Assembly: GCA_009837725.1 (NCBI GenBank)
Contig: VXSY01000206.1
Coordinates: 1-33,968 of the forward strand
Source of the DNA: Gammaproteobacteria bacterium
GTDB taxonomy: Bacteria > Pseudomonadota > Gammaproteobacteria > Pseudomonadales > Azotimanducaceae
Length of the DNA: 33,968 bases
Reading direction: 5' to 3'
Shown here: piece after piece, positions 16,345-30,727 of the stretch
How positions within the stretch are numbered: position 1 is the first letter of the stretch
How the letters are laid out: each line of letters opens with the position of its first letter
Made by a program: the position numbers and the translations under genes
Notes under the pieces: generated by a model
What the model saw: the letters and a program-made list of their open reading frames with translations, nothing else
What the model was told of the DNA's origin: nothing
Databases searched by the model: none

Positions 16345-17616
16345 TCATGGTTTGGGCGCGACCGTGTAGGACAGACCGTCGTACAAGAAAGCTCGCCCGA
16401 TGGTTTCGCGGTCCGCCTCGGTCACGCCCGCGCCTTGCATCACGTTGCGCCAGCGGCGGCGGACGGTTTCCGTGATTTGGTCGAAGATTGCGCTCGCTTC
16501 CGCTTCTTCGAGCAGGAAGCGGCCGTGGCCGCTCAGGAGATTGGTTCGGTTGGCTTGGCGGCCGTACTGACCGCAGGCCATGGCGAGGTCGCGCCGGTCG
16601 AGGGCCAGCACGGGCGAGGGGACAAGGTCGTAGGCGGGGCTCAGGCGCCAAGACGTTCCCGGCGCCAGCATCGCGTGGTTACGGGGATGGTCGTCGATGT
16701 TGGATGTCGCCGCGTTGAAACACATGCGGGCGAAGAGTTCCCTGAGGTCGTCCTGTGGCGCTGCGCTGGCGCGACGGACTTCGTCGGCGAGAAGGAGGTA
16801 GGACCAGCGGTCGCGCTCTCCCACTGCGTCGCCGCTCTGAAGCAGCGTCAGGGCACTGATCATGCGGTGGCGCGAGAGGGCTTTGCCGCGCCGCTCGCGG
16901 TCGAAGCGACGGACAAGAAGCACGTCACGGTCCGCGACGGTATCGACGCGACTGTCGGCAACCTGCAGACCACACGCTCGGGCGAGATTCAGCATGCCGT
17001 GTTCGACCTTGGGGTGATTCCAGCGGTCTTCAGGGCTTGCGAACTTAGCGAGCCAGAGGGTGTCGCCCTCCTGCACGACTGCCTTTGGTCTGGCGCCGCC
17101 CATCGAAGTTCCGAGCAGGAGCAGTTCCTCGACGTGGCGAGCGGTGGGTGTGGTGTCGGGTTCCTTGCCGGCGACAATGGCGTCGGCGGTGCTCTGCAGG
17201 CTCGCGAGATCCAGAGTGCGACTGAACTGGCGCCTCGGCAGGGGAGGCTGCACGTTGGCACCGAACGCCAAGGCCCCGGCTCGGTCGTCCGGGGAGCGCA
17301 GCAAGTAGTCGAATTCGGCGAGTTCTGCGACGCCGAATCTGCGTTCAATTACCCGGCGGCCCCAGAAGTCGGGCATGGCGTCGCGGATCGCGCCAAAGAA
17401 GCCTTGCAGGCGTGCCTTCTGGCGAACTTCGCTCGAAAGCTGGAGTTCGATCGGATCGAACTCCACGGCATCTGGTCGTTCGAGGTACGAGCGGCCATAG
17501 ACGAACTGACCCACGGGAACTTCCCCGTCGTCGATCCAACGAAAGCGGCCCGCAGTGACGAACTCCGTTGCGCCCGGGAGCATGATGTAAACGAAACACT
17601 CGCGTTCAGAAGTCAT
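16345..17616 (-). CDS. hipA: HipA-type serine/threonine kinase toxin
   Basis: A 423-residue HipA protein, the toxin kinase of a type II toxin-antitoxin module; E. coli HipA phosphorylates glutamyl-tRNA synthetase and drives persistence. The N-terminal subdomain has PVGQFVYGRSYL, the core domain has a Gly-rich GTSMGGARPKAV loop near 169-180 (containing the residue region autophosphorylated in E. coli HipA), and Lys191 in LAKF. The catalytic loop is SNIDDHPRNHA with Asp309 and Asn313. The metal Asp is D330 in SPAYDLVP. All catalytic residues are present, so it should be active. It overlaps hipB by 11 nt. Confidence 0.92.
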   Translation of the reverse strand: MTSERECFVYIMLPGATEFVTAGRFRWIDDGEVPVGQFVYGRSYLERPDAVEFDPIELQLSSEVRQKARLQGFFGAIRDAMPDFWGRRVIERRFGVAELAEFDYLLRSPDDRAGALAFGANVQPPLPRRQFSRTLDLASLQSTADAIVAGKEPDTTPTARHVEELLLLGTSMGGARPKAVVQEGDTLWLAKFASPEDRWNHPKVEHGMLNLARACGLQVADSRVDTVADRDVLLVRRFDRERRGKALSRHRMISALTLLQSGDAVGERDRWSYLLLADEVRRASAAPQDDLRELFARMCFNAATSNIDDHPRNHAMLAPGTSWRLSPAYDLVPSPVLALDRRDLAMACGQYGRQANRTNLLSGHGRFLLEEAEASAIFDQITETVRRRWRNVMQGAGVTEADRETIGRAFLYDGLSYTVAPKP

Positions 17617-18210: not shown

Positions 18211-19545
18211 TCAGGGGCCGGTTGTGCGGAAGGGAATGTTGGCGTGGGCTGTGTTGCCTTTGGGGTCGGAGGCGTAGGCGAACAGGCGGTATGTGCCGGG
18301 CTCGGGTGCCTGCAATGTGATGGTGGGGCGAGTGGGATCGTCCATTAGGCCGGGGATGTCGGGGATGGCGGGTTCGTAGTCGCCGCCGTCGGTGGTAGCC
18401 GTGCTTTCAGGCTTTAGGTGCCAGCGGTAGGTTAGTGGGTCGCCGTTTGGGTCGTGGATGGTGAACTCGGCGTGGTAGTGCCCGCCGGCTACAAGAGTCA
18501 CGTTGCTGTTGGCGGTGTGGTTGTCGAGACGCATTGCCTGGATCACGGGGGCTTGGTTGGGTGCGTGTTGCCCAGACCATGCGAGTTGCATGGCGTCCAC
18601 GGCGGCGGTGGGTTGGCCGGATGGGGTGAACAGGCTGTACCACGTGGGCGTGCGTTCTTGCTTTTGGCCCCACAGGAACACGTAGCTGCCGAGGCATTGG
18701 CCGCGTGCGAGCACGGGCTCGATGAGTTCGCGGTAGCCGTCTAGATAGCGGCGGGCCTTGGCGGTACTGTCCATTTCGACGGGTGCACCCCATGCGGTTT
18801 GGTTGGCCTCCCAATGGCCTATGGGGCCCCACTCGGTCACCATGAAGGGCCGGCCGGCAAACCACTCGTCTGCGTAGCGCGGCATCAACGCCAGGGCGCC
18901 GTAGAGCTGGATGCTGATGAAGTCGAGGTCTGGCGCGTGCTCCTTCACGACTTCGATGGGCTCCTCGCCGGCCGTGATTGCGGTGGTGGTTGGGTGGTTG
19001 GGGTCCAGTTCGTGGATCATCCTCGACAGCGCGTTCACCTCGTCGTACACGCGCCCGTCTTTCATGCCGTGGTTGAGTTCGTTGCCGATGATCCAGGCGA
19101 GGAGGGCAGGGTGATTGCGATAGCGTTCGACTGCTTCTCGTACTCGTTGTCGCTGCGCCACCACCTGCTCCTCGTCGTCGTAGTCCATGCCCCAGCGTTC
19201 CGCGGCCACCGGCAGGCCGAGTGCCACGGTCAGGCCGTTCTTGGCGGCTTCGTCGAGGTCGCGCCCGGCAGTTTCGATGCCCCAGGTGCGCACGGAGTTG
19301 CCGCCGCGTTCCGCGAGGGTGCGGTAGTTGACGCCGACTACGCCAGCGCCCTTGACGACATAGGGCTGGCCGCCCCGGAGGAGCTGGAAGCCGTCACCGT
19401 GCGCTACGACTTTAACTTCGATGGGTTGCGCGTGGAGCAGCGAGGCCGCGAGCGTCCAAAACAGCAACGTTGTCCGAAGCACACGGGCCTTGTGGCGAAG
19501 CTCCCGCGCTTGGGGCGAGGGCATCTTGCCCCCACGGCGCTTCAT
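18211..19545 (-). CDS. Secreted clan-A-type glycoside hydrolase (GH2/GH158-like TIM barrel)
   Basis: A 444-residue exported glycosidase. After a basic start, a hydrophobic stretch TTLLFWTLAASLLHA at about 25-39 looks like a signal peptide. The TIM barrel starts with PYVVKGAGVVGVNYRTLAERGGNSVRTW, split here around residues 61-88. The likely acid/base is Glu156 in WIIGNELNHG and the nucleophile Glu239 in FMVTEWGP, the clan GH-A arrangement. The C-terminus from about residue 340 resembles an Ig-like beta domain (VIQAMRLDN..., HDPNGDPLTYRW). The family could be GH2-like or GH158; I cannot decide. The ATG overlaps the GH3 stop (ATGA), so the two are coupled. Confidence 0.75.
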   Translation of the reverse strand: MKRRGGKMPSPQARELRHKARVLRTTLLFWTLAASLLHAQPIEVKVVAHGDGFQLLRGGQPYVVKGAGVVGVNYRTLAERGGNSVRTWGIETAGRDLDEAAKNGLTVALGLPVAAERWGMDYDDEEQVVAQRQRVREAVERYRNHPALLAWIIGNELNHGMKDGRVYDEVNALSRMIHELDPNHPTTTAITAGEEPIEVVKEHAPDLDFISIQLYGALALMPRYADEWFAGRPFMVTEWGPIGHWEANQTAWGAPVEMDSTAKARRYLDGYRELIEPVLARGQCLGSYVFLWGQKQERTPTWYSLFTPSGQPTAAVDAMQLAWSGQHAPNQAPVIQAMRLDNHTANSNVTLVAGGHYHAEFTIHDPNGDPLTYRWHLKPESTATTDGGDYEPAIPDIPGLMDDPTRPTITLQAPEPGTYRLFAYASDPKGNTAHANIPFRTTGP

Positions 19546-21479
19546 CGGGGGTAGGTTGGGTTGGTGCGTGGGCGGGCGGCGTCTTCGGGCATGTCGGCCG
19601 CGGTGTCGGACTCTTCGAGTTGCTCGAGGGGTGGTGCTTTCTCGCCGTAGCGAAGACCGAAGCCGTAGGGGAACAGCGGGTCGTAAGTTGTGTCGCCCAC
19701 ATTGAGCGGGGTCTGCAGCGCATGGCCCGGCCACGAGAAGCTTAGGCGACCGTGGAAGTCGGGCCCCTGCTCGCCGGCCCGGGCTTGAAACAGCACATCT
19801 GCGACGCCAGCGCCTTCGCTACCCGGCAACCACGCGACCACGAAGGCATCCGACGCGTTGAGTTCCGGGTTGATCCACATCGGCCGGCCGGTGAGGAACA
19901 CCGAGACGGTAGGGACGCCGAGTGCCTGCAAGCGTCGCAGGATCGCGAGTGGCCCCGCGTTGGTGCGGGAGTGGCTGAGGTGGGTGCGGTCGCCGTCGCC
20001 CTCTGCATACGGGTCTTCGCCGAAGACGACGATGGCGGCGTCGGGTTTGACGTCACCGAACTGCCCGTCTGGTGCCAGCACTGCCGAGCCGCCATTTGCG
20101 ACCGCCGATTGGATGCCGTCGAAGATCGATGTCGCGTTCGGGAAGTCGGCATTGTCGTTGTCCGTGCCCTGCCATGTCAGCGTCCAGCCGCCGCACTGCT
20201 TGCCGATATTGTGTGCGCCGTCCCCTGCCACCAGCACACGCATGTCGCGCCGGAGCGGAAGCAGCCCGTCGTTCTTCAGCAGCACCAGCGATTCGCGCAC
20301 AGCCTGTCGCGCCAGTGCTCGATGTTCGCTTTGCCCGATCACGCTGAAGTCGCCGGCGTCAGGCCGGCTCGACGGTCGTCCCTTGTGGAATAGCCCAGCC
20401 CTCGCCTTCACGAGCAGGATGCGGGAAACAGCGTCATCGATCCGCGCCTCGGAAACCACACCGCTTCGAACCTGCTGCAACAGGTCGCGATAGGTGCGCC
20501 GCCAGTCCTCGCCAACCATCAGCATGTCCACGCCAGCGTTGACGGTGCGGGCGCAAGCCTCGCCGTGGTCCTCGGCGACTTGCTGGTAGCCGTTCCAGTC
20601 GCTGACCACGAAGCCATCGAAGCCGAGGGCACCCTTTAGCACTTCCGTAAGCAGGTAGTGATGGCCATGCACCTTTTCGCCACGCCAACTGTTGTAGGCA
20701 GCCATGACGGTCTGCACCCCGACGGCCAGTGCAGCGCGGTGCCCTGGGGAATGGAGGGCAAGGAGTGTCTCTTCTGAACACTCGGCTTCGCCTTGGTCGC
20801 GGCCGCCCACCGTCGCGCCTTCGCCGATGAAGTGCTTTGCGGTGGCAATCACCCGTTCGGGGCCGAGAAAGCCCTTCGCGCTGCGCGTTCCCTGTAGCGC
20901 GGCGACCATGCGCGATGCGTACTTCGCCACGATGTCGGGTTGCTCGGCGTAGCCTTCGTAGGTCCTGCCCCAGCGGTCGTCGCGCGGCACGGCGAGCGTA
21001 GGCGCGAAGGTCCAGTCGATGCCCGTCGCCGCCACCTCACGGGCGGTGGCGCCGCCGATGGCGGCAACGAGGTCTGGATCGCGAGCGGCACCAAGGCCGA
21101 TGTTGTGGGGGAATACGGTGGCTTTGTAAACGTTCGAGTGTCCATGCACGGCGTCCGTGCCCCACAGGATCGGCACGCCATTGCCGTCGTTCGCTTTCGT
21201 GGACGTTTCGTGGAAGGCATCGGCAAGCTCGACCCAATCCGCCACGCTCGCATGCTTGTTGCCACCCGGAGAACTGCCGCCGCCGTTGAGGATGGAGCCC
21301 AAGCCGTAGCTGCCAGCCTCGGCGGGCGTGACGCTCGCAATCTCCGCCTGCACCATCTGCCCCACCTTCTGTTCCAAGGAAAGGTGTTGGAGGTAACCGG
21401 CAATGGTCCTTGCATCGGCTTCGGCCAAGCGCGAGGTCGGGGTAGCGGCCGGGCCCCAGCGGGCCATAGCTTTGCTCAC
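19542..21479 (-). CDS. Glycoside hydrolase family 3 (exo-beta-glucosidase type)
   Basis: A 645-residue GH3 enzyme resembling exo-beta-1,3/1,4-glucosidases. LSLEQKVGQMVQAE starts the barrel, followed by WGTDAVHGHSNV (about 106-117), FAPTLAVPRDDRWGRTYEG, and KHFIGEG at 215-221. The nucleophile is Asp294 in FVVSDWNGY. The second domain has ESLVLLKNDGLLPL and VVFGEDPYAEGDGDR, and the C-terminus DPLFPYGFGLRYGE is typical. I see no signal peptide, so it may act in the cytoplasm on imported oligosaccharides; some homologues do have one. The GTG overlaps the lacI stop (GTGA); ATG 21467 is the alternative. It is the middle gene of the lacI, GH3, GH operon. Confidence 0.9.
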   Translation of the reverse strand: MSKAMARWGPAATPTSRLAEADARTIAGYLQHLSLEQKVGQMVQAEIASVTPAEAGSYGLGSILNGGGSSPGGNKHASVADWVELADAFHETSTKANDGNGVPILWGTDAVHGHSNVYKATVFPHNIGLGAARDPDLVAAIGGATAREVAATGIDWTFAPTLAVPRDDRWGRTYEGYAEQPDIVAKYASRMVAALQGTRSAKGFLGPERVIATAKHFIGEGATVGGRDQGEAECSEETLLALHSPGHRAALAVGVQTVMAAYNSWRGEKVHGHHYLLTEVLKGALGFDGFVVSDWNGYQQVAEDHGEACARTVNAGVDMLMVGEDWRRTYRDLLQQVRSGVVSEARIDDAVSRILLVKARAGLFHKGRPSSRPDAGDFSVIGQSEHRALARQAVRESLVLLKNDGLLPLRRDMRVLVAGDGAHNIGKQCGGWTLTWQGTDNDNADFPNATSIFDGIQSAVANGGSAVLAPDGQFGDVKPDAAIVVFGEDPYAEGDGDRTHLSHSRTNAGPLAILRRLQALGVPTVSVFLTGRPMWINPELNASDAFVVAWLPGSEGAGVADVLFQARAGEQGPDFHGRLSFSWPGHALQTPLNVGDTTYDPLFPYGFGLRYGEKAPPLEQLEESDTAADMPEDAARPRTNPTYPR

Positions 21480-22516
21480 GCTACGCCTGGTGCGGACGTG
21501 GAGCGCCTCACCACCAATCGGCAATCGAAGGTCTTGCGAACATGCACACTGCGCTCGCCGCGAATCCACTCGAGCAAGAGTTCCGCCGCTTGCGACGCGA
21601 TCTCGACGATGGGCTGGCGCACGGTGGTGAGCGGCGGCCAGGTGTGCAATGCGGTCGGAGAATCGTCGAAGCCAGCTACCGACAGCTCCGCCGGCAAGGC
21701 GATGCCCGCTTCCTGTGCCGCGACGATCACGCCAGCCGCCATGTCGTCGTTGCTGGCGACGATGGCGGTGGGGCGGTCTGCCAGCCCGAAGAGCCCATGC
21801 GCCGCCGCCTTGCCGGACTCGAAATCGAACAGCCCCGGCACGATCAGGCTCTCGTCCACGGTCATGCCGCGATCGCGCAAGGCTCGCAGATGACCGTCGA
21901 GTCGGGCGCTGGCGGCACCGTGGCGTGGGTCGCCTTGAATGAAGCCGATGCGCGTGTGGCCCAAGTCGAGCAGATGCTCGGTGAGCGTGTGGCTGCCGGC
22001 GAAATCATCAGGCCCCACCGAGGTCCAGCGCGTGTCCGTGATGCCGGGGGAAATCTGCACGAACGGTACGTCCCGCTCGGTCAAGGCATCGGTGAGGTCC
22101 GGACGATCCCCGATGGGCGCCGTGAGCACCATTCCGTCGACGCGGGTTTGGGTCAGAAATCGCACGATGTCTTCCGTCGCCGGATTCTCGCTCGAAGGCC
22201 GCAGCAACAGCGCATAGCCGTGCGTTTGGCAAACGCCGAAAACGCCATCGAGGATCTGTTGGATGTAGCTGAATTCGTGCGGGTTCTCATAAAGCAGGCC
22301 GATCGAGAAGGTGCGTCTTCCAGCAAGCCCCCTGGCGGCGGGATTGGGCTCGTATTGCAGTTCGCGCACCGCCTCCATCACCCGCTCCCGCGTCTCGGAG
22401 CGCACGTTGGCTTCGTGGTTGATGACCCGCGAGACGGTCTTGATGGAAACTCCCGCGCGACGGGCAACGTCACGGATCGTGGCGCGGGCACGCCCGCTCG
22501 TTGTGGTTTCTTGCAT
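21476..22516 (-). CDS. LacI-family transcriptional regulator
   Basis: A 346-residue LacI/GalR repressor. The N-terminal HTH ATIRDVARRAGVSIKTVSRV is at about residues 12-31, followed by the hinge helix NPAARGLAGRRT near 57-68. The periplasmic-binding-protein-like effector domain includes TFSIGLLYENPH, RVDGMVLTAP, VASNDDMAAGV and LSVAGFDDSPTA. Effector is unknown but probably a sugar released by the downstream glycosidases. A 14-bp palindrome TGACAACGGTGTCA lies 17 bp before its ATG, and two near-identical sites are in the TonB-receptor promoter. It probably represses both operons. Its stop overlaps the GH3 start. Confidence 0.93.
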   Translation of the reverse strand: MQETTTSGRARATIRDVARRAGVSIKTVSRVINHEANVRSETRERVMEAVRELQYEPNPAARGLAGRRTFSIGLLYENPHEFSYIQQILDGVFGVCQTHGYALLLRPSSENPATEDIVRFLTQTRVDGMVLTAPIGDRPDLTDALTERDVPFVQISPGITDTRWTSVGPDDFAGSHTLTEHLLDLGHTRIGFIQGDPRHGAASARLDGHLRALRDRGMTVDESLIVPGLFDFESGKAAAHGLFGLADRPTAIVASNDDMAAGVIVAAQEAGIALPAELSVAGFDDSPTALHTWPPLTTVRQPIVEIASQAAELLLEWIRGERSVHVRKTFDCRLVVRRSTSAPGVA

Positions 22517-22532: not shown

Positions 22533-22546
22533 TGACAACGGTGTCA
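22533..22546. promoter_or_regulatory. Predicted LacI-family operator upstream of lacI
   Basis: TGACAACGGTGTCA is a near-perfect 14-bp palindrome with the central CG typical of LacI-family sites. It differs at one base from the two sites at 30678-30691 and 30713-30726. It lies 17 bp upstream of the lacI start codon, where binding would repress the lacI, GH3, GH operon. Confidence 0.7.
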
Positions 22547-22597: not shown

Positions 22598-24085
22598 TCA
22601 GGCCCGGCAGTAGTGATCGATGAAGCGCTGGTGTTCCGGGAGCTGGCGCACCATTCCCTCCACGTTGCCGTGGATGCCGCTCAGGAAGCCGGCGAGTTCC
22701 TCGTCGCTCATCATGTTGACGATGGGGTGGTACTGCTCTGGCAGCAGGCCTTGTCCGAGCATCACCTGAATCCACGAGTTCTCGCCGAAGAGCTCGGTCG
22801 GCACCTTGAACACACGGCCGGCCTGGCGGAAGAGTTCAATGCGGTGGCGGAGCGAATCGGGCACATCCATGCTGGCGCAGTGCCGCCAGAAATCCGTGTC
22901 GCGTCGTTCCGTCACGTAGTAATGCAGAACGATGAAATCGCGAACATTGTCGATCTCGAATTTCATCTGGCTGTTGAACTCATCCACATCCGGCTGGCGG
23001 ATGCCGTCATAGGGGAACATCTGCATCAGGCGGATGATGCTGCGTTGGATCAGATGAATACTGGTGGATTCGAGCGGCTCGATGAAGCCGGAGGCGAGCC
23101 CCATGGCGATGCAGTTGCGGTGCCAGTGCTGGTGCCGTTGCCCGGTTCGAAAGCGGATCACCCTCGGCTCCGTCAGCATGTCGCCGGCCACGTTCTCCTT
23201 CAGGCGCGCCACCGCTTCGTCGTCGGACCAGTGCTCGGAGGAGAACACCACGCCGTTGCCAACGCGATGTTGCAGCGGAATGCGCCACTGCCAGCCGGCG
23301 CCGCGGGCAATGGCGCGGGTGTATGGCAACGGTGGCGACAATGCCTCGGTTTGCACGGCCACCGCGCGGTCGCAGGGCAGCCAATGGCGCCAGTCCTCGT
23401 AGCCCACCTCCAGCGCGCCTTCGATCAACAGGCCGCGAAAGCCGGTGCAGTCGACGAAGAGATCGCCCTCGATGCGCTGTCCCGACTGCAGTTGTAGGGC
23501 GGTGATGTAACCGGTCTCGGCGTCCTTCTCCACTGCCTGAATGCGCCCTTCCTGGCGCACCGCGCCGTGCTCCTCGGCCATGTGGCGCAGGAACGCGGCA
23601 TAGCGCGAGGCATCGAAGTGATAGGCGTAGTTGAGGCCCTGGCTCGGCAGCACGGCAAATCGGCCTTGCTTGGCCGCCAGCCATTCCTTGCAGTATTCGC
23701 CGAACTCCCGGGCGATCCCCATGCGCTGTCCCTTGAGCCAGAAGTGCTGGAACCCGGCGGCCCAGCTATCCCGTCCGGTCCAGCCGAAGGAGTGGATGTA
23801 GTTCTTGCCGAGGTCGCGCCAGTTCTCGAACGAGATGCCGAGCTTGAAGGTGCCCTGGACGGCGCGCACGAAGTCCTGCTCCTTCACCTTCAACAGTTCG
23901 TGCAGCGTCAGCAGGGTGGGGATGGTGGCCTCGCCAACGCCAACGGTGCCGATCTCTTCGGACTCCACCAGCGTGATGTCGAGGGTTTTGCCGAGGAGCT
24001 TGGCCAGCGACGCCGCGGCCATCCAGCCGGCAGTGCCGCCGCCGGCAATCACGACCTTGTGGATCTTCCTGTGCTGCACGTCCAT
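22598..24085 (-). CDS. Flavin-dependent tryptophan-halogenase-like protein (first of two)
   Basis: A 495-residue member of the FAD-dependent tryptophan halogenase family. The FAD motif GGGTAGW is at 15-21. Lys81 in GTFKLGISFENW matches the catalytic Lys that carries hypohalous acid in PrnA. The halogenase fingerprint WxWxIP is intact as WQWRIP at 265-270, and the conserved GFIEPLEST segment contains the catalytic glutamate region. All known requirements are therefore present. It needs reduced FAD, but no flavin reductase is in the window. The substrate is unknown; the family in TonB-receptor clusters includes enzymes that halogenate free indoles. I chose ATG 24085; GTG 24106 is in frame. It is the last gene of the receptor operon. 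Confidence 0.9.
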   Translation of the reverse strand: MDVQHRKIHKVVIAGGGTAGWMAAASLAKLLGKTLDITLVESEEIGTVGVGEATIPTLLTLHELLKVKEQDFVRAVQGTFKLGISFENWRDLGKNYIHSFGWTGRDSWAAGFQHFWLKGQRMGIAREFGEYCKEWLAAKQGRFAVLPSQGLNYAYHFDASRYAAFLRHMAEEHGAVRQEGRIQAVEKDAETGYITALQLQSGQRIEGDLFVDCTGFRGLLIEGALEVGYEDWRHWLPCDRAVAVQTEALSPPLPYTRAIARGAGWQWRIPLQHRVGNGVVFSSEHWSDDEAVARLKENVAGDMLTEPRVIRFRTGQRHQHWHRNCIAMGLASGFIEPLESTSIHLIQRSIIRLMQMFPYDGIRQPDVDEFNSQMKFEIDNVRDFIVLHYYVTERRDTDFWRHCASMDVPDSLRHRIELFRQAGRVFKVPTELFGENSWIQVMLGQGLLPEQYHPIVNMMSDEELAGFLSGIHGNVEGMVRQLPEHQRFIDHYCRA

Positions 24086-24115
24086 TACTCCAGGGTTGCC
24101 GGCCACTTAAGATCG

Positions 24116-25138
24116 TCACTGATTCAGGCGATTCAGCAAGGATGCCCGCAGACGCTTGGCGCCAGCGTCGTCGAGCGTTGCGAGAAAGCCCTTGCCGGCG
24201 GCGGGTATGTGCTCATGCACGGACTCGTCGGCATCGAATACGTAGTGGTTGAAGAGGCCCCGCCACGCCTCGCGCTGGCGTTGCGGTAAGTCTCGCAATG
24301 CGAGCATCGCATGCAGCAGGGCATCCGACGGGGCGCCGAGCGCAGCCAGCGAATTGCACCACCAATAGTTGACGAGCAGATTGAAGGCGGCAAGCGACTC
24401 GATGTGATGCCACCACATGCTGGGAATGAAGATGGCGTCGCCCGGCTTCAGCAAGGCCGTTCGTGCATGTCGCATCGCCTCGGCGAAGCGAGGGTGGCGG
24501 GATAGGTCTGGGGCCGCGAAATCCACCAGGCTGATGGCCTGCCCGGACGGGGTGCGGTCCACGGGCCCCACATAGAGATTGTCGATTTGATCCGGCGGCA
24601 ACAGCGTGAAGCGGCGTTCGCCAGCCACCACGCAAGCGAGATTGTCGGGAAAGTCGTAGTGCGCCGAGATGCGTGTGCGGCTGCCAAGCCAGAAACTCGC
24701 CAGCGCATCGTCCTGCGGCAGAGCCACGTCGTTTTCGGCTCGAAAGCCGGGCAGCAAAGCGTCCACCGGGGTGGATCCGACATAGATCGTCGAGAGCCGG
24801 TCCTCGCGCCCCGCATCCGCCAGCCTCGCCACCACCTGCGGCACGGTGGCTTTGCCGCTCGCGAAGTTGAAGCCGGTGAAGTCGTCGTTGTAGAAGAACC
24901 TGCCGTCGATGCCGGAGTCGCCGGCATAGACCGTCACCGGGGCGTCGTTCCAGAACCTCGACAGATAGCGCGCCGCCGAACCCATGGAGGCACCGCACTC
25001 GGCCACGGCCGGCCAATCCGCCACCAGGCCCGGAAGATGCACCGGTTCACCGGCATCGAAGACATGGGGCGGGACGGCCCCTGCACCGCGGCCGGGCGCC
25101 AGCGTCGGTACCGGCGCCACATCGTCCAGCCAGTTCAC
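24116..25138 (-). CDS. Cupin-like / JmjC-type Fe(II)-dependent dioxygenase family protein
   Basis: A 340-residue protein of the cupin_8/JmjC-like group, related to FIH-type protein hydroxylases. PVHLPGLVADWPAV is the common opening. The iron ligands are probably His160 and Asp162 in SAHYDFPDN and one of His244/His245 in MWWHHIESL, following the FIPSMWWHH motif. Proteins of this kind repeatedly neighbour SapC and halogenase-like genes in TonB-receptor operons (sometimes named PassA). The substrate is unknown. Its ATG overlaps the SapC stop by 4 nt, so it is coupled to SapC, and it precedes the first halogenase gene. Confidence 0.88.
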   Translation of the reverse strand: MNWLDDVAPVPTLAPGRGAGAVPPHVFDAGEPVHLPGLVADWPAVAECGASMGSAARYLSRFWNDAPVTVYAGDSGIDGRFFYNDDFTGFNFASGKATVPQVVARLADAGREDRLSTIYVGSTPVDALLPGFRAENDVALPQDDALASFWLGSRTRISAHYDFPDNLACVVAGERRFTLLPPDQIDNLYVGPVDRTPSGQAISLVDFAAPDLSRHPRFAEAMRHARTALLKPGDAIFIPSMWWHHIESLAAFNLLVNYWWCNSLAALGAPSDALLHAMLALRDLPQRQREAWRGLFNHYVFDADESVHEHIPAAGKGFLATLDDAGAKRLRASLLNRLNQ

Positions 25139-25872
25139 GCTGCAGCCTCCCTAGCCACTGCCCGGTTTTTCCGTTCAATCAGGCTCTGCACGCGGGCGAG
25201 GGAGGCGAGCGCCATGAACATCGGCATCAGGTAGCCGCTCTCGTTGAACGCACCCAACACGTCGCCGCCAAGCGCCTGAACCTTCTCCTCGGCAACGCAG
25301 TGAAAGCCGAGCAACTGATTGCGCGAGCCATCGTTCAGTTCGATCTCGAAGGTGATGCTTTCGAGCAGTCCATGCTCGGCGAGCGCCGTACAGAAACCCT
25401 TGCTGTGGTCGATGCCGGCATAGATGGTTTCGAGGAGGTTCGCGGCGCTTTCGAGGTACGGCGTGCGCCCGCCCAAAGGGGCGAACAGCGCCTCGCCCAC
25501 CTCGGTGTTGACGCGGGGGTGGTCCATGTCGAGCGACAGCATGCGGGCACGCTCGGTGGCGCCTGGCCCGGTGGCCTCGCCGAAGCCGATGAGGAACGGC
25601 TCGCGCTGCACCATCGCCGGAATGTAGGGCGCTTGCCAGCCGTCCTCGGAGAGAAAGAGATTCTCGCCTTCCTGAAAGCCGAACAGCGCCACCGGGTAGT
25701 AGTCGCCGGCCGAGTTTTGCTGGAACAGAATCGGATAGTGTGCCTGCACGTTGCGGAACTCGAACGTGAAGGCCATCGCCAGCATGATGTCGTCGCCGTA
25801 GCGGGGCGAACGCTCGGTGATGATCTTCACGTCCTGATGGTCGACGTTGTTGAGCAGGGCGTAGTCAGGCAC
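25135..25872 (-). CDS. SapC family protein
   Basis: A 245-residue SapC-like protein. The family is named after a Campylobacter S-layer-associated gene but its function is not known. Features seen: a start with LLNNVDHQDVKI, AFTFEFRNVQAHYPILF, an internal block YPVALFGFQEGENLFL, and GWQAPYIPAMVQREPFLIGF, all characteristic. There is no signal peptide or membrane helix. The start overlaps the stop of the second halogenase gene by 8 nt, and its stop overlaps the cupin start by 4 nt. Such overlaps suggest stoichiometric expression and perhaps a complex with the halogenase and cupin proteins. Confidence 0.9.
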   Translation of the reverse strand: MPDYALLNNVDHQDVKIITERSPRYGDDIMLAMAFTFEFRNVQAHYPILFQQNSAGDYYPVALFGFQEGENLFLSEDGWQAPYIPAMVQREPFLIGFGEATGPGATERARMLSLDMDHPRVNTEVGEALFAPLGGRTPYLESAANLLETIYAGIDHSKGFCTALAEHGLLESITFEIELNDGSRNQLLGFHCVAEEKVQALGGDVLGAFNESGYLMPMFMALASLARVQSLIERKNRAVAREAAA

Positions 25873-27433
25873 CGTTGGCTGATCCTCCCGTCTGCTCGGC
25901 TATGGCGCGCAGCACTTCGCGATTCGTCGGCAGCCTTTGCTGCGCCTCGGCCGCCCTGGCGCGGCTGGCGTGGAACACCTGATCGGCCTCGGAGCGCATC
26001 GCCACGTAGGACGGCGAGTCGTCGCCGGCGTGGCGCGGGCGGAAGCCCATGCCGTAGAGGACGTATTGATAGCTGGCCGAGGGGAAGAGCTCATCGACGC
26101 GGGGGGCATCGTCGTGCCACGGTGGTTGCTGTTGCCACAGGAGCAGCTTGTCGGCGAGGCCCTCCGGCCAAGTGGCCAGGTCGCGGTGTGCGCGCCAGTA
26201 CGGCTCGTCCCGGGCGCTGGTGGCGTAATGCAGCTTGAGGAATTCGACGATGCGACCCCAGTGATAGCGTAGGCGCTCGTTGAAACGCCTTGCCACCGCG
26301 TCCATCACCTGCCTGGTGCGGGGCATTTGCTCGGCAACGATGGCGGCGGACTGTTCGACTAGCGCGAGGGCCGACGCTTCGAGCGGTTCCACGAATCCCT
26401 GAGACAACCCGATGGCGACGCAATTGCGATGCCAGAACGTGTCCCGATGGCCCGGCTCGAAGGCGATGCTGCGATAGGTGAGCGTTTCGGGCTGGATTTG
26501 CGGCGAGGTGCGCGCAACGTATGCCACCAGCGCAGCGCGCGCCGTGCTCTCGTCCATGTGGTCGCTGCCGTACACGGCACCAAGGCCGCGCCGGGTTTGC
26601 AGGCCGATGTCCCAGATCCAGCCGCTCGGCTCGGCGGTTGCCAGCGTTGCCGAGGCGATGGGCGCGTCGGGGTGGTGGTAGGGCACTTGCACGGCGATGG
26701 CGCGGTCGTTGAAGAGCACGTCGCGAGCCGAGACGAAGCGGCGGCGGAAGTGCCCGCCGATCAGCAGGGCGCGTTGCCCGGTGCAATCGACGAAGAGGTC
26801 TCCAGGTACGCGAACGCCGGTGTCGAGGGAGATGGCGGCAATGTCACCGTCCTCCAGCGACTCGATCTGCTCGACCTTGCCGGACACGTGCGCGACGCCC
26901 AGGCGCTGAACGGCATGCCGCTGCAGCAGTTCGGCAAACTTCCCGGCGTCGAGGTGGTAGGCGTAGTTAAAGGCAAATGCATACGGGGGCGCGGACGCCT
27001 CCTTCGGCGCTAGTCCCCGCTCGATGGCGGCCACCTGAGGTGTCGCAAAGCGCGCAAACGGCATATTCGGGCGCTCGCCGAGCCAATACTTCGCAGGGTT
27101 CAGGCGCACGTATTCCACCGGTAGGCTGAACGGATGGATGTATTCGTCCGTCTCACGTTGGCCCGACCAGCCGAGGAAGCGCGTGCCCTGCTTGAAGCTC
27201 GCGCTGCAGGCGTGAAGCATCTCGCCCTCGTCGATGCCGATGCGCTGCAAGGTTCGGCGCATCGACGGCCAAGTGCCTTCGCCAACCCCGATCGTGGCGA
27301 TATCCGGAGCCTCGACCAGCACCACCTGCAACGGCTCGCGCCAGTGGCGGCATTCGGCGGCAATGCGATTGGCGGCAATCCAACCGGCCGTGCCGCCGCC
27401 AACGATCACGACCTTCCGAGTCGCCCGATCCAT
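25865..27433 (-). CDS. Flavin-dependent tryptophan-halogenase-like protein (second, divergent motif)
   Basis: A 522-residue paralogue-like family member. The FAD motif GGGTAGW is at 12-18 and the catalytic Lys81 in ASFKQGTRFLGW is kept. The WxWxIP fingerprint is altered to WIWDIG (272-277), with Gly in place of the final Pro. Other family parts remain, including NYAYHLDAGKFA, FVDCTG, FWHRNCVAIGL and GFVEPLEASAL. It may halogenate, act as a flavin-dependent oxidase, or have lost activity. It is the second gene of the operon, 157 bp after the TonB-receptor stop, and overlaps SapC by 8 nt. Confidence 0.88.
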   Translation of the reverse strand: MDRATRKVVIVGGGTAGWIAANRIAAECRHWREPLQVVLVEAPDIATIGVGEGTWPSMRRTLQRIGIDEGEMLHACSASFKQGTRFLGWSGQRETDEYIHPFSLPVEYVRLNPAKYWLGERPNMPFARFATPQVAAIERGLAPKEASAPPYAFAFNYAYHLDAGKFAELLQRHAVQRLGVAHVSGKVEQIESLEDGDIAAISLDTGVRVPGDLFVDCTGQRALLIGGHFRRRFVSARDVLFNDRAIAVQVPYHHPDAPIASATLATAEPSGWIWDIGLQTRRGLGAVYGSDHMDESTARAALVAYVARTSPQIQPETLTYRSIAFEPGHRDTFWHRNCVAIGLSQGFVEPLEASALALVEQSAAIVAEQMPRTRQVMDAVARRFNERLRYHWGRIVEFLKLHYATSARDEPYWRAHRDLATWPEGLADKLLLWQQQPPWHDDAPRVDELFPSASYQYVLYGMGFRPRHAGDDSPSYVAMRSEADQVFHASRARAAEAQQRLPTNREVLRAIAEQTGGSANGA

Positions 27434-27590
27434 TCCGACCCCACGCGCTCTTGAGAACGCCCCTTCAAGGCACCTCGGCGATCATACAAGGCAGTCAAAC
27501 TCTCAGGAGGCTTGCGTCCCATTGCCGGCCCGGCATGCCAAGCGTCCCGCCCTCACTCCGGAGCAGTCGGAGGGTCGAGAACCCGCCGCA

Positions 27591-30587
27591 CTACAGCTTG
27601 TAGCGGAACCCGAAGTTGTAGCGAGGCCCTGCTTGCCCGGCGAACAGCGTTTGCATCCAGGCGCGGCCGAAGACGTGGGTCGTCTGGTCGTTGAGATTGA
27701 GCGCATCGACGTAGATCTGCATGTTCTCCGTGACCCAGTAGCTCGCGCTCAGGTCGAGCTGCTGATACGCGCCCACATAGGTAGGCGGGCCCGAGCCGAC
27801 GTTGTTCTGCCCGGTTCCGGCGAGGAAGTTGTCGCGCCAGTTGTAGGCCAGCCGAACGCTCAGCCCCTCCTTGTCGTAGAAGGCGATGAGGTTGGCCGAG
27901 TCGCTTAAGCCTGTCAGCACGAACTGCTGCGCCAGGCTGAAGTTGTCGTAGCCCACATCCGCATCGACGATGGTGGCGTTGGCGATGACGCCGAAGCCGG
28001 TGTCGCCGAAGTTGTGCTGGACGACGACCTCCCAACCCTTCATGGTCGCCTTCTCGATGTTGACCGGCACGGTCAGGTTGAACGGTGCCGATGGATCGCG
28101 GCCGGCCACGCCCGAAATGACGCCATTCGCGGCGTCCACCCCGGCGGCGTCGGCGCGGTTCTCTAGAATCCAGGTGTAGAGCAGGCCCGAATCCGAGCTG
28201 CCCGTGGCGGCGCGGGCTTCGTCGGCGAGGGGGCCGAGGCCTGGGTGCGGTAGGTCGAACGTGTTCTCCACCACCGACGCGGTGCCGATGAAGTTGTCCA
28301 CGTCCTTGACGAAGTAACCGAGCGCGGCGTAGTTGTCGTCGGCGTAGTACCACTCGAACGACAGGTCGTAGTTGCTCGATTCGAACGGCAACAGCCCCGG
28401 ATTGCCTCGGTTGCCGGTGCCGCCGTCGATCCGCACCAGCGAGTTGATGGTCTGGCCGCCTTGGATGTCGCCGTAGTTGGGCCGCGTCATGGTCTCGCTG
28501 GTGGAGAACCGGAACAACACATCCGAGGTGAGATCCAAGCGGAAGTCGATGCTCGGCAACAGCAGGTCGTAGCTGCCCGAGAGCTGCGTGAACTCCGGGT
28601 CTGCCTGAATGGCGTTGAGTTCGTTGCCGGCCACCCAGTTGATTGCCGTGTAGGCGGGCGAGAGCGCCTCCGACGAGACATCGGTGTCCTCGTAACGCAA
28701 GCCCAGGCGCAGCCCTGCCGGCATCGTGCCCCAAGTCCAGCCGAGGTTGGCCTGGGCGTGCAGTGCCGCCGACTCCTCCACCGTGCGGCGGTCGGACGTG
28801 AACCGGCTCGAAGTACAGAGCCCCGTGCCGCAATCCCCCATGTCCGTGAGTTGGAAGATGGTCGCATCGCCCGACGCCATGAGCGCCTCGGTGCGGGCCA
28901 CGAGCTCTGCCATGTCGAAGCGGTAGAACTCGGTTTGGCGGCGAGAATCGTCGCCGCCGGGAATCTGGTCGAAGGCATCCGCCGCAGAGTCGGGCGTCAA
29001 CAAATCGGCTATCGCGCCGGGTTGCGTCACCCCGCCCCATGCATCCCGCTGCACCACCGAACCTGCGGAGCGGTTGTTGACCTCGGTGAGCTGGATGCCG
29101 AAGTCGATGCTCTCGATCACACCGACGTCAAAGTCGTAGTGGCCGTCGAGACGGGTCTGGTTGATGCCCATTTTCGAGAGGTTGTTCTGGAACACACTGC
29201 CGGTGACGATCATGTCCTGCGGCGACAGCGGGTTCCGCAGCGTCAGCTCCAGCACCGGCAGTTCGTGGCCGAAGTAGCCGGTGGTGCGGTCTCGCGTGAA
29301 CGCCGCTGTGGAGAGCAGGGCGGAGTCGCCGAAGGGACTGTTGGGCGACCGTTCGGCGGTGGAGTCGTGGTAGTCGAACTCGAAGGTGAGTCGGTCCGTG
29401 GCATCCCAAAGCAGGTTGATGCCGGTGGCGCCGTTGCGCGCCTTCCACGCATCCTGGCCACCACCCATCGAGTAATCGCTGCCGGCCAGGTTTTCGGTAT
29501 AGACCCGAGGCGACGCTTGCGGGCCGTCGGTCCACAAGGTCTCCTGGGCGCCAAAGTTGAACCAAGCCGAGAGATTGCTGTAGGTGCGGTCGAGTTCCAC
29601 CTCCGAGAAGGTGTAGTCGAGGGTGGCGACGAGCGTATCGGTGGCTTGCCACTGCGCCGTGAGCTGGCCATTGGTGCGCAGGCGCGAGTATTCGGCCAGC
29701 TCGTAGCCGATGCTCTGCGGCACGGAGTAAAGGTCACCGGGACCGGGTCGGTTGATCTGGTTCGGATCGCCTTGGGGAGGAATGCCGCCCCACTCCGAGG
29801 GCCCGGCGCCGCACCAGCAGTTGTCCACTTCGCCCGGGAACGTGCGCCAGCCGCCGACGCTGGCCGTGTTGGCGCCGTTGTTGCGATCCTGCCGCACGGC
29901 GGAGAGGGCGATGCCCACCCGGTCGTCAGCGAAGGTGTTGGAAAAAAGCGCCGATATCTCCGGCGTGAAGCCACTGCCGTCCTCCGTGGAGGTGTCGTGC
30001 AGGCCACTGGCGGCGGCAGTGAAGTTCATGCCCGGCGCATCGAGGGGGCGGGTGGTGCGCACGTTCATGGTGGCGCCGATGCCCCCGGTGGGAACATCGG
30101 ACTGGCCGCTCTTGTACACCTCGACGGCACTGATGCCTTCCGAGGCCAGATTGCCGAAGTCGAACGACCGGCCGAGGCCACTGGAAGTGGGCATCTGGCG
30201 GCCGTTCAGGAGCACGAGGTTGAAGTCCGGCCCGAAGCCCCGGACGGTCACCCGAGCCCCCTCGCCGCGTTCGCGGTCGATGGAGACGCCGGTGATCCGC
30301 TGCAGCGACTCGGCGAGGTTGCTGTCCGGAAAGTCGCCGATGTCCTCGGCGGTGATGGCGTCCACCACGCCGTCCCGCGCCCGCTTGAGGTCCATGGACT
30401 CCTTCAGGCTCTGCCGGAAGCCGACCACGATCACCTCTTCGACGGCCCCCGGCAGCACCGCATCATCGGCGCCGGCCGACGGCTCCGGTTCTTGCGCCGT
30501 CGCCTGCTGCGCCGGGGCGAGGGCACTCGCGATCACGAGCGAAACCGCCGATGCAATCGGGGTTTTCCGGAACACGTCGCTTGGCAT
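27591..30587 (-). CDS. TonB-dependent receptor (Xanthomonas-Caulobacter type)
   Basis: A 998-residue outer-membrane receptor. A signal peptide (SAVSLVIASALAPAQQATAQ) ends near residue 32, and a TonB box-like EEVIVVGFR follows at about 50-58. The plug contains DAITAEDIGDFPDSNLAESLQRITGV, split around 77-102, and RVTVRGFGPDFNLVLLNGRQMPT, which mark the Xanth-Caul sub-family (TIGR01782). The barrel ends with NFGFRYKL. Such receptors typically import oligosaccharides too large for porins. The ATG is preceded by GGAGAGG. Two LacI-type operators lie in its promoter (30678-30726). It is the first gene of the receptor, halogenase, SapC, cupin, halogenase operon. Confidence 0.95.
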   Translation of the reverse strand: MPSDVFRKTPIASAVSLVIASALAPAQQATAQEPEPSAGADDAVLPGAVEEVIVVGFRQSLKESMDLKRARDGVVDAITAEDIGDFPDSNLAESLQRITGVSIDRERGEGARVTVRGFGPDFNLVLLNGRQMPTSSGLGRSFDFGNLASEGISAVEVYKSGQSDVPTGGIGATMNVRTTRPLDAPGMNFTAAASGLHDTSTEDGSGFTPEISALFSNTFADDRVGIALSAVRQDRNNGANTASVGGWRTFPGEVDNCWCGAGPSEWGGIPPQGDPNQINRPGPGDLYSVPQSIGYELAEYSRLRTNGQLTAQWQATDTLVATLDYTFSEVELDRTYSNLSAWFNFGAQETLWTDGPQASPRVYTENLAGSDYSMGGGQDAWKARNGATGINLLWDATDRLTFEFDYHDSTAERSPNSPFGDSALLSTAAFTRDRTTGYFGHELPVLELTLRNPLSPQDMIVTGSVFQNNLSKMGINQTRLDGHYDFDVGVIESIDFGIQLTEVNNRSAGSVVQRDAWGGVTQPGAIADLLTPDSAADAFDQIPGGDDSRRQTEFYRFDMAELVARTEALMASGDATIFQLTDMGDCGTGLCTSSRFTSDRRTVEESAALHAQANLGWTWGTMPAGLRLGLRYEDTDVSSEALSPAYTAINWVAGNELNAIQADPEFTQLSGSYDLLLPSIDFRLDLTSDVLFRFSTSETMTRPNYGDIQGGQTINSLVRIDGGTGNRGNPGLLPFESSNYDLSFEWYYADDNYAALGYFVKDVDNFIGTASVVENTFDLPHPGLGPLADEARAATGSSDSGLLYTWILENRADAAGVDAANGVISGVAGRDPSAPFNLTVPVNIEKATMKGWEVVVQHNFGDTGFGVIANATIVDADVGYDNFSLAQQFVLTGLSDSANLIAFYDKEGLSVRLAYNWRDNFLAGTGQNNVGSGPPTYVGAYQQLDLSASYWVTENMQIYVDALNLNDQTTHVFGRAWMQTLFAGQAGPRYNFGFRYKL

Positions 30588-30677: not shown

Positions 30678-30691
30678 TGACAACGTTGTCA
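30678..30691. promoter_or_regulatory. Predicted LacI-family operator, downstream site of receptor promoter
   Basis: TGACAACGTTGTCA is a perfect 14-bp palindrome beginning at the expected transcription start of the receptor operon. A bound repressor here would block initiation. It is 35 bp (centre to centre) from the upstream copy at 30713-30726. Confidence 0.75.
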
Positions 30692-30697
30692 GTGCCC

Positions 30698-30727
30698 TGT
30701 ATAGGGCAAGAAGGACAACGTTGTCAA
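30698..30727 (-). promoter_or_regulatory. Predicted promoter of the TonB-receptor operon
   Basis: On the minus strand a perfect -35 TTGACA (30727-30722) is followed by an 18-nt spacer and TATACA (30703-30698) as -10. The expected start is about 30691. The -35 lies within the upstream LacI operator and the downstream operator covers the start, a strong repressor layout. A small palindrome GCCCTGTATAGGGC spans the -10. Confidence 0.65.
30713..30726. promoter_or_regulatory. Predicted LacI-family operator, upstream site overlapping the -35 box
   Basis: GGACAACGTTGTCA contains the perfect 12-bp core GACAACGTTGTC, one base from the 30678-30691 site. It overlaps the TTGACA -35 hexamer. Two sites about 3.3 helical turns apart suggest cooperative binding or a repression loop. 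Confidence 0.75.

Follow-up and report, generated by a model that had tools for sequence, protein, structure and literature searches.

The locus described here raises the question of why two flavin-dependent halogenase-like proteins, a SapC family protein and a JmjC-like protein should be encoded behind a TonB-dependent receptor, and on what they would act. We addressed it by computation, which established the gene order and its conservation, the catalytic signatures, the palindrome layout and the context of SapC genes beside giant genes. The genes lie in a stretch of 33,968 nucleotides (the window) that is an entire contig of a 4.66 Mb assembly in 303 contigs. On the minus strand, the order is TonB receptor, Hal1, SapC, Cupin_8/JmjC and Hal2 (Table 1), with 157 nt between receptor and Hal1, overlaps of 8 nt (Hal1/SapC) and 4 nt (SapC/JmjC), and 9 nt between JmjC and Hal2. 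The receptor matched the TIGR01782 profile at 593.6 bits (cut-off 310), plug and barrel being recognized via PF07715 and PF00593; Hal1 and Hal2 matched PF04820 at 391.4 and 633.3 bits (cut-off 21), SapC matched PF07277 at 210.4 bits (cut-off 28.9), and the JmjC protein matched PF13621 at 220.1 bits (cut-off 27.4). Since, by inspection, the receptor alone among the five proteins has a signal-peptide-like N-terminus, Hal1, SapC, JmjC and Hal2 are probably cytoplasmic. Genes for LacI, GH3 and a glycosyl-hydrolase-2-like protein follow 3′ of Hal2, and an SSF symporter is more distant.

Table 1 Features of the receptor locus and its surroundings in the window
Feature	Coordinates	Strand	Basis
TonB-dependent receptor, 998 aa, TIGR01782 (Xanth-Caul)	27591..30587	-	ORF, profile match, model
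Receptor W917 codon (YNWRDxF), candidate modification site	27837..27839	-	alignment
Hal1, flavin-dependent halogenase-like, 522 aa; K81 and E352 kept, WIWDIG replaces WxWxIP	25865..27433	-	profile and motif
SapC family protein, 245 aa; model with pLDDT 97	25135..25872	-	profile and model
Cupin_8/JmjC protein, 340 aa, FIH-like; H160, D162, H244	24116..25138	-	profile and motif
Hal2, flavin-dependent halogenase-like, 502 aa; best PDB match Xcc4156 (6y1w, 685 bits)	22598..24106	-	profile and motif
LacI-family regulator	21476..22516	-	profile
GH3 glycoside hydrolase; listed GTG start overlaps LacI, real start probably later	19542..21569	-	ORF and profile
Glycosyl hydrolase family 2/TIM-barrel-like protein	18211..19734	-	profile
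Palindrome TGACAACGTTGTCA, upstream of receptor	30678..30691		assembly-wide site search
Second palindrome copy, 1 mismatch, upstream of receptor	30713..30726		site search
Palindrome copy, 1 mismatch, upstream of LacI gene	22533..22546		site search

Across the whole assembly, SapC and TIGR01782 matches above cut-off each occur once, and Hal1 and Hal2 are the sole PF04820 matches above 130 bits. Two more, remote PF04820 relatives, both above the family cut-off and one also FAD_binding_3-like, belong to this assembly too (L099:10674-12311 and L101:5218-6603). Beyond the glycan genes, on their downstream side, the window also includes a HipA-like kinase gene (16345-17616), and SIR2-like, M32 peptidase, beta-lactamase-fold and circularly permuted ATP-grasp genes between 3508 and 10602, for which a tie to the operon is not evident.

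We evaluated the stability of the gene order by scanning named genomes with a Hal2 alignment. Of the 580 relatives confirmed, the best 80 were used, a sample picked by closeness to Hal2 that measures how stable the order is and not how frequent. The full receptor-Hal1-SapC-JmjC-Hal2 series was found on one strand in 60 of these 80 loci, and SapC-JmjC-Hal2 in 72, so that the clustering is not a matter of chance. The eight exceptions to the shorter series comprise four loci in which Hal2 lies at most 200 bases from a contig edge (L111, L125, L139, L150), one with a run of N across SapC (L113), one without Hal1 and SapC (L146), one without JmjC (L151), and one in which Hal2 has no partners within 10 kb upstream (L110). 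An apparent Hal1-SapC gene fusion in L113 was rejected, given the stretch of N there. By NCBI class, 64 of the 80 loci are gammaproteobacterial, 7 betaproteobacterial and 6 alphaproteobacterial, with 3 unassigned. The preliminary description of this DNA had listed five same-strand genes (receptor, two halogenase-like, SapC and JmjC-like), the last four with 4–8 nt overlaps or short gaps, which coordinates and profiles confirm, and had staked its case on an order kept in related genomes, which is indeed strongly conserved. It had also placed the recurrence in Caulobacterales and Xanthomonadales: the neighborhood does recur, over a wider range that takes in Gamma-, Beta- and Alphaproteobacteria, with Alteromonadales or Cellvibrionales accounting for 44 of the 80 loci. 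Shewanella, Alteromonas, Colwellia, Microbulbifer and Rheinheimera are among the genera with named cassette loci.

A sample independent of Hal2 took in 274 genomes of the class; 40 of them have SapC, at 49 places in total. Hal1 and/or Hal2 were close by at nine of these places, the window counted (phmmer, E 1e-10), and a receptor was also present at eight of the nine. Partial versions occur as well: one locus has the four enzyme and SapC genes with no adjoining receptor detected (L071), and two have receptor-Hal1-SapC only (L092, L095). Starting instead from TIGR01782, 249 genomes of the phylum were sampled with about three candidates scored per genome, and 33 genomes matched at 1e-60. Among the 75 receptor regions fetched, a halogenase relative was found in 32 and none in 43, and all 15 SapC-bearing regions fell within the 32. 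A bigger TIGR01782 sample of 370 genomes, with two candidates scored per genome, had 17 genomes with matches at 1e-100. Five receptors of another clade (L219, L233, L235, L255, L260) were accompanied by two to at least four halogenase relatives and a Cupin_8-like gene, with SapC not nearby; the best PDB matches of two L255 halogenases were BrvH, Xcc4156 and 9luq.

The catalytic signatures of the enzymes are strongly conserved in the ORFs above score limits that we set (Hal2 > 700 bits, n = 96; Hal1 > 550 bits, n = 78; JmjC > 360 bits, n = 92). The sequence motifs of flavin-dependent halogenases, as given in the available part of PMC5945002, are GxGxxG, a Lys, a Glu and WxWxIP. Hal2 has all of them: G22, G24 and G27 of GxGxxG, K88 and E346 are each present in 96/96 ORFs, and WxWxIP in 95/96. 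Hal1, which shares 34 percent identity with Hal2 in the window, keeps K81 and E352 (78/78) and lacks WxWxIP, having in its place WxWDI(G/A) with Gly in 74/78 and Ala in 4/78 (WIWDIG in 65/78). WxWxIP has been proposed to stop halogenases from working as monooxygenases (PMC5945002, in the part available), and its loss from Hal1 would suit a reading in which both flavoproteins oxygenate indoles or phenols as part of general aromatic metabolism and are tied to the receptor by regulation only. Such a role seems quite unlikely to us, as order and spacing are conserved over three classes and the ten recurrent-neighbor representatives scanned included no aromatic-degradation family.

Among solved structures, Hal2 is nearest to Xcc4156, followed by 9luq and BrvH (6frl); in sequence alignment, its residues 11-502 are near-collinear with 12-502 of 6y1w. 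BrvH likewise has the Lys, the Glu and WxWxIP, and its gene is directly preceded by another halogenase gene (PMC5945002, available part). According to the portions available of PMC5945002 and PMC7336383, BrvH and Xcc4156 act in vitro on indole or its derivatives and do not accept free Trp, and their active sites are open, for which peptides or larger substrates have been raised. Unlike the cassette described here, neither TonB nor SapC is mentioned in those portions, and a word search of the available text of PMC8269204 found no mention of TonB, SapC or cupin. The best PDB matches of Hal1, and thus its closest structures, are 9ltb (518 bits), 2pyx (504 bits) and 9lu2 (381 bits), named as tryptophan halogenase; no publication on 9ltb, 9luq or 9lu2 was found in the open-access literature. 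Action on a Trp inside a protein has a precedent in QhpG, an FAD enzyme that dihydroxylates peptidyl Trp (PMC7876137, available part). QhpG and LodB, flavoproteins of Trp-derived cofactor biogenesis, are related to Hal1 and Hal2 only remotely in sequence, their NCBIfam models matching far below the curated cut-offs (Hal1 at 41.6 of 240 for QhpG, Hal2 at 26.6 of 400 for LodB), and Hal1 and Hal2 thus stand outside these peptidyl-Trp oxygenases as delimited by the cut-offs.

The third enzyme retains an iron triad, H160, D162 and H244 (HxD..H), in 92/92 JmjC ORFs. Of its 35 PDB matches, 33 are named FIH, JMJD7 or JMJD5/KDM8, with FIH at 68 bits, and the HxD and a WWHHIES stretch align with FIH, JMJD5 and JMJD7. 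FIH acts on proteins. The likeness to FIH extends over about 105 aligned residues only, and R175, invariant in 92/92 ORFs, occupies the position of what we take to be the 2-oxoglutarate-binding Lys of FIH. A DUF6445 protein, named on one representative, is encoded in 25 of 83 SapC+Hal2 loci, in 24 of them immediately 3′ of Hal2 (e.g., L172:11479-12228), and its conserved H129xD131, H221 and R239 suggest a second Fe(II)/2OG oxygenase site. Its single PDB match up to E 1 was at E 0.39, and no DUF6445 protein was found among the window genes scanned.

SapC itself is probably not an enzyme. Its predicted model is confident (mean pLDDT 97, pTM 0.91) and found no match in the PDB by Foldseek at E 0.001 (best 0.14), while a profile search of the PDB returned four matches, the best only at E 0.29; PADLOC matched neither SapC nor JmjC. 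No catalytic motif was evident by inspection of the conserved columns, and an oxygenase function was rejected for lack of both HxD..H in these columns and a PDB fold match. A reading in which SapC and the enzymes help the receptor to fold or assemble but change nothing covalently, for instance as chaperones whose active sites are dead, could draw on these properties of SapC; the invariance of the catalytic residues (Hal2 K88 and E346 in 96/96, JmjC HxD..H in 92/92) makes it very unlikely.

Stand-alone SapC genes, outside receptor cassettes (L050-L097, 40 loci), had a same-strand ORF of at least 1000 aa within 2 kb at 22 loci; among 459 control genes, 37 had one (Fisher p 2e-12). One rule was applied to SapC loci and controls, and the control genes were drawn from receptor regions and eight fetched cassette loci, mostly of other genomes. 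A first, laxer count gave 23 of 40, and at 21 of these 23 loci the giant gene lay on the 5′ side of SapC. Giant same-strand neighbors were absent at 18 of the 40 loci, some of them at contig edges. Among five giants scanned, two had a TPS domain, one had RTX repeats, one had repeat families such as DUF5649 and one was without match; ShlB and FecR genes, each named on one representative, recur beside stand-alone SapC (8 and 7 loci). This association of stand-alone SapC with giant genes is a new observation of the present analysis. In Campylobacter fetus, a SapC of the same Pfam family by name is encoded near genes for the S-layer, a large exported surface protein, and to our knowledge without a TonB receptor or halogenase at the locus. 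Where known, the neighbor of SapC is thus often a large exported protein, and the receptor is the sole such protein in the cassette. At E 1e-40, PF04820 was without a match in seven of eight stand-alone-SapC genomes checked, G213 being the exception, which argues that the role of SapC is independent of halogenation.

Next, we consider regulation and the ligand. With at most one mismatch, TGACAACGTTGTCA has three sites in the full assembly, all inside the window, two before the receptor and one before LacI. A palindrome is thus common to receptor and regulator genes, as in a LacI-controlled glycan uptake locus, and LacI may bind these putative operator sites. With up to three mismatches, the window alone has three matches against 0.75 expected, a number reached in 4 of 100 shuffles. 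Among relatives, 10 of 84 upstream regions carry TGACAACGTTGTCA with at most one mismatch (reversed control, 0/84), which rules out one common palindrome for most cassettes. Genes for GH3, GH16 or GH1, families named from one representative per cluster, are nearby in 63 of the 83 SapC+Hal2 loci, and uptake of a beta-glucan or beta-glucoside is therefore likely for most of this Hal2-biased locus set. Both the palindromes on the LacI side and these glycosidase genes support the glycan-type regulon that the preliminary description had proposed.

The same context could mean that the substrates are the imported ligand itself or aromatic aglycones freed from imported beta-glycosides, which the enzymes would detoxify or tag in the cytoplasm. 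The cassette adjoins LacI, GH3 and a symporter, glycosidase genes recur around it as just described, and BrvH and Xcc4156 do halogenate indole or derivatives in vitro (PMC5945002 and PMC7336383, available portions). We nevertheless consider this unlikely: it leaves SapC without a role, SapC being elsewhere often beside giants and in genomes mostly without halogenases, and several cassettes per genome, all with a receptor of their own, would be needless for a common cytoplasmic product. Moreover, a flavin halogenase would find no aromatic ring in a beta-glucan. The role first suggested for the enzymes of this DNA was that they may modify a ligand, peptide or on the surface, tied to receptor function, or may detoxify or tag an imported compound; the evidence points rather to the receptor polypeptide, which had not been named.

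SapC cassettes are repeated in several genomes, and every copy has a receptor of its own: two in G012 (L073, L075), two in G256 (L069, L092) and three in G143 (L068, L090, L095). Another possible substrate of the enzymes is a peptide or protein, RiPP-like or on the cell surface, whose gene lies elsewhere and which, once modified, would be bound or imported by the receptor. MibH, a halogenase, has a peptide as substrate, and the active sites of BrvH and Xcc4156 are open (PMC7336383 and PMC5945002, in the portions available). The gap from receptor to next gene is, however, at most 100 nt in 18 of 82 measured cassettes, so that a precursor-peptide gene right after the receptor is not a constant part of the cassette, and we judge this reading improbable. 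In the others the gap reaches up to 1667 nt (with guessed start sites), which leaves room for a small gene 3′ of the receptor in some cassettes.

If the receptor were the substrate, its sequence might vary with its neighbors. We classed 149 receptors by neighbors within 9 kb: class A has SapC with Hal2 (84 receptors, one of them a bystander in L135), class B a halogenase but no SapC (18, the N-run locus L113 among them), class C Hal1 with SapC (5), and class D none of these (42). In a receptor tree of 81 of the 149, built by a quick method with SH-aLRT support only, a clade of 25 rows with support 100 unites 18 A, 4 C and 3 D receptors. All SapC-bearing receptors of the tree belong to it except one C row, L240, which groups with D rows; the 16 B rows occupy two further regions of the tree. 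Among the clade's three D rows, L229 runs into a contig edge, L225 shows no cassette over 16 kb, and L270 keeps most of the conserved Trp residues without an adjoining cassette, Hal2/Hal1 relatives being elsewhere in its genome.

All A receptors but one (83 of 84) have W917, the exception being the second, bystander receptor in L135; it also occurs in 12/18 B, 2/5 C and 5/42 D receptors, or 3/39 D receptors once L225, L229 and L270 are left out. It is found in 10/10 receptors of a separate halogenase-bearing clade (B) and in the C receptor L240 placed among D rows; it is missing in six B receptors of another clade, and Asn takes its place in three of five C receptors. A tree-corrected test gave seven independent pairs with a mean of 2.4 same and 0 opposite (p 0.25-1), which is not significant, and W917 ranks 8th of 235 columns. 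W917 appears to track halogenase neighbors in the alignment and serves as a lead only. A loop with W266 was rejected as a required target: it is present in 85 percent of A receptors and lost in several. No receptor column stood out as tied to Hal1 presence. As for the ligand, the 50 listed Foldseek matches of the receptor model (pLDDT 88) were all TonB receptors, siderophore and other, mostly for iron, and gave no hint; a PDB search with the receptor-alignment profile found no chain at 1e-10.

The reading we tentatively prefer, though we place it somewhat short of an even chance, takes the genes for Hal1, SapC, JmjC and Hal2 together as a cassette dedicated to maturation of the receptor polypeptide. 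A LacI-type repressor would leave the receptor promoter, probably on beta-glucan or beta-glucoside, and the cassette would be made. SapC, probably a non-enzymatic binding protein, would hold the unfolded receptor precursor in the cytoplasm and present it to the flavoenzymes and the FIH-like hydroxylase. Hal2, with its full halogenase signature, and Hal1, a divergent halogenase or monooxygenase, would modify Trp side chains of the receptor; the FIH-like Fe(II)/2-oxoglutarate hydroxylase would modify Asn, Asp or His; and all modification would precede Sec export.

We infer the receptor as substrate, SapC as its presenter, and the residues changed along with any effect of the change. For the receptor as substrate argue its place as the only usual cassette gene that is neither enzyme nor SapC, the lack of a constant precursor-peptide gene after it, the repeated cassettes within one genome, each with its own receptor, and the pattern of W917 across receptor classes. 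Relatives of the enzymes acting on proteins point the same way, namely FIH and QhpG, as do the peptides raised as substrates for BrvH and Xcc4156 in the available portions of the papers on them. The maturation reading is also favored by the conserved gene order, by the single clade of nearly all SapC-bearing receptors in the tree and by the giant genes beside stand-alone SapC. Against it stand the absence of W917 from six B and three C receptors, the non-significant independent pairs, the SapC-clade members without adjoining cassette (L270, L225), the cassette without detected receptor (L071) and the lone Hal2 (L110). The 18 of 40 stand-alone loci without a giant, and controls drawn from other loci, weaken the case for SapC as presenter, and the invariant Arg of JmjC, where FIH presumably has Lys, counts against receptor maturation as a whole. 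The co-occurrence of receptor and enzymes could also reflect co-regulation only.

In the open-access literature, we found no paper on SapC together with halogenases, or on SapC with tryptophan halogenase and a TonB-dependent receptor, a result that does not prove the cassette undescribed. Among the matches listed, papers joining tryptophan halogenase or halogenase with TonB, with Shewanella and N-acetylglucosamine, or with polysaccharide utilization included none on the cassette as judged by title and start of abstract, and none of the best 15 of 202 papers on laminarin or polysaccharide utilization contained tryptophan halogenase. No report of covalent modification of a TonB receptor was met in the open-access literature searched, and we know of no case of halogenated residues in such a receptor. 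A broader proposal can be framed, which we hold to be doubtful: covalent receptor modification before export may be widespread. While SapC holds the precursor, Trp (W917 is one candidate) would be halogenated or hydroxylated, and a further residue would be hydroxylated. In this proposal SapC would present large proteins destined for export in general, whether such enzymes accompany it or not.

For BrvH and the Xanthomonas halogenase Xcc4156, the native substrates were reported as unknown in 2020 (PMC7336383, available part), and the receptor would be one concrete candidate substrate. If the proposal is true, post-translational modification would join glycan-uptake biology, and the SapC family, with its confidently predicted fold and no PDB fold match, would gain a testable role.
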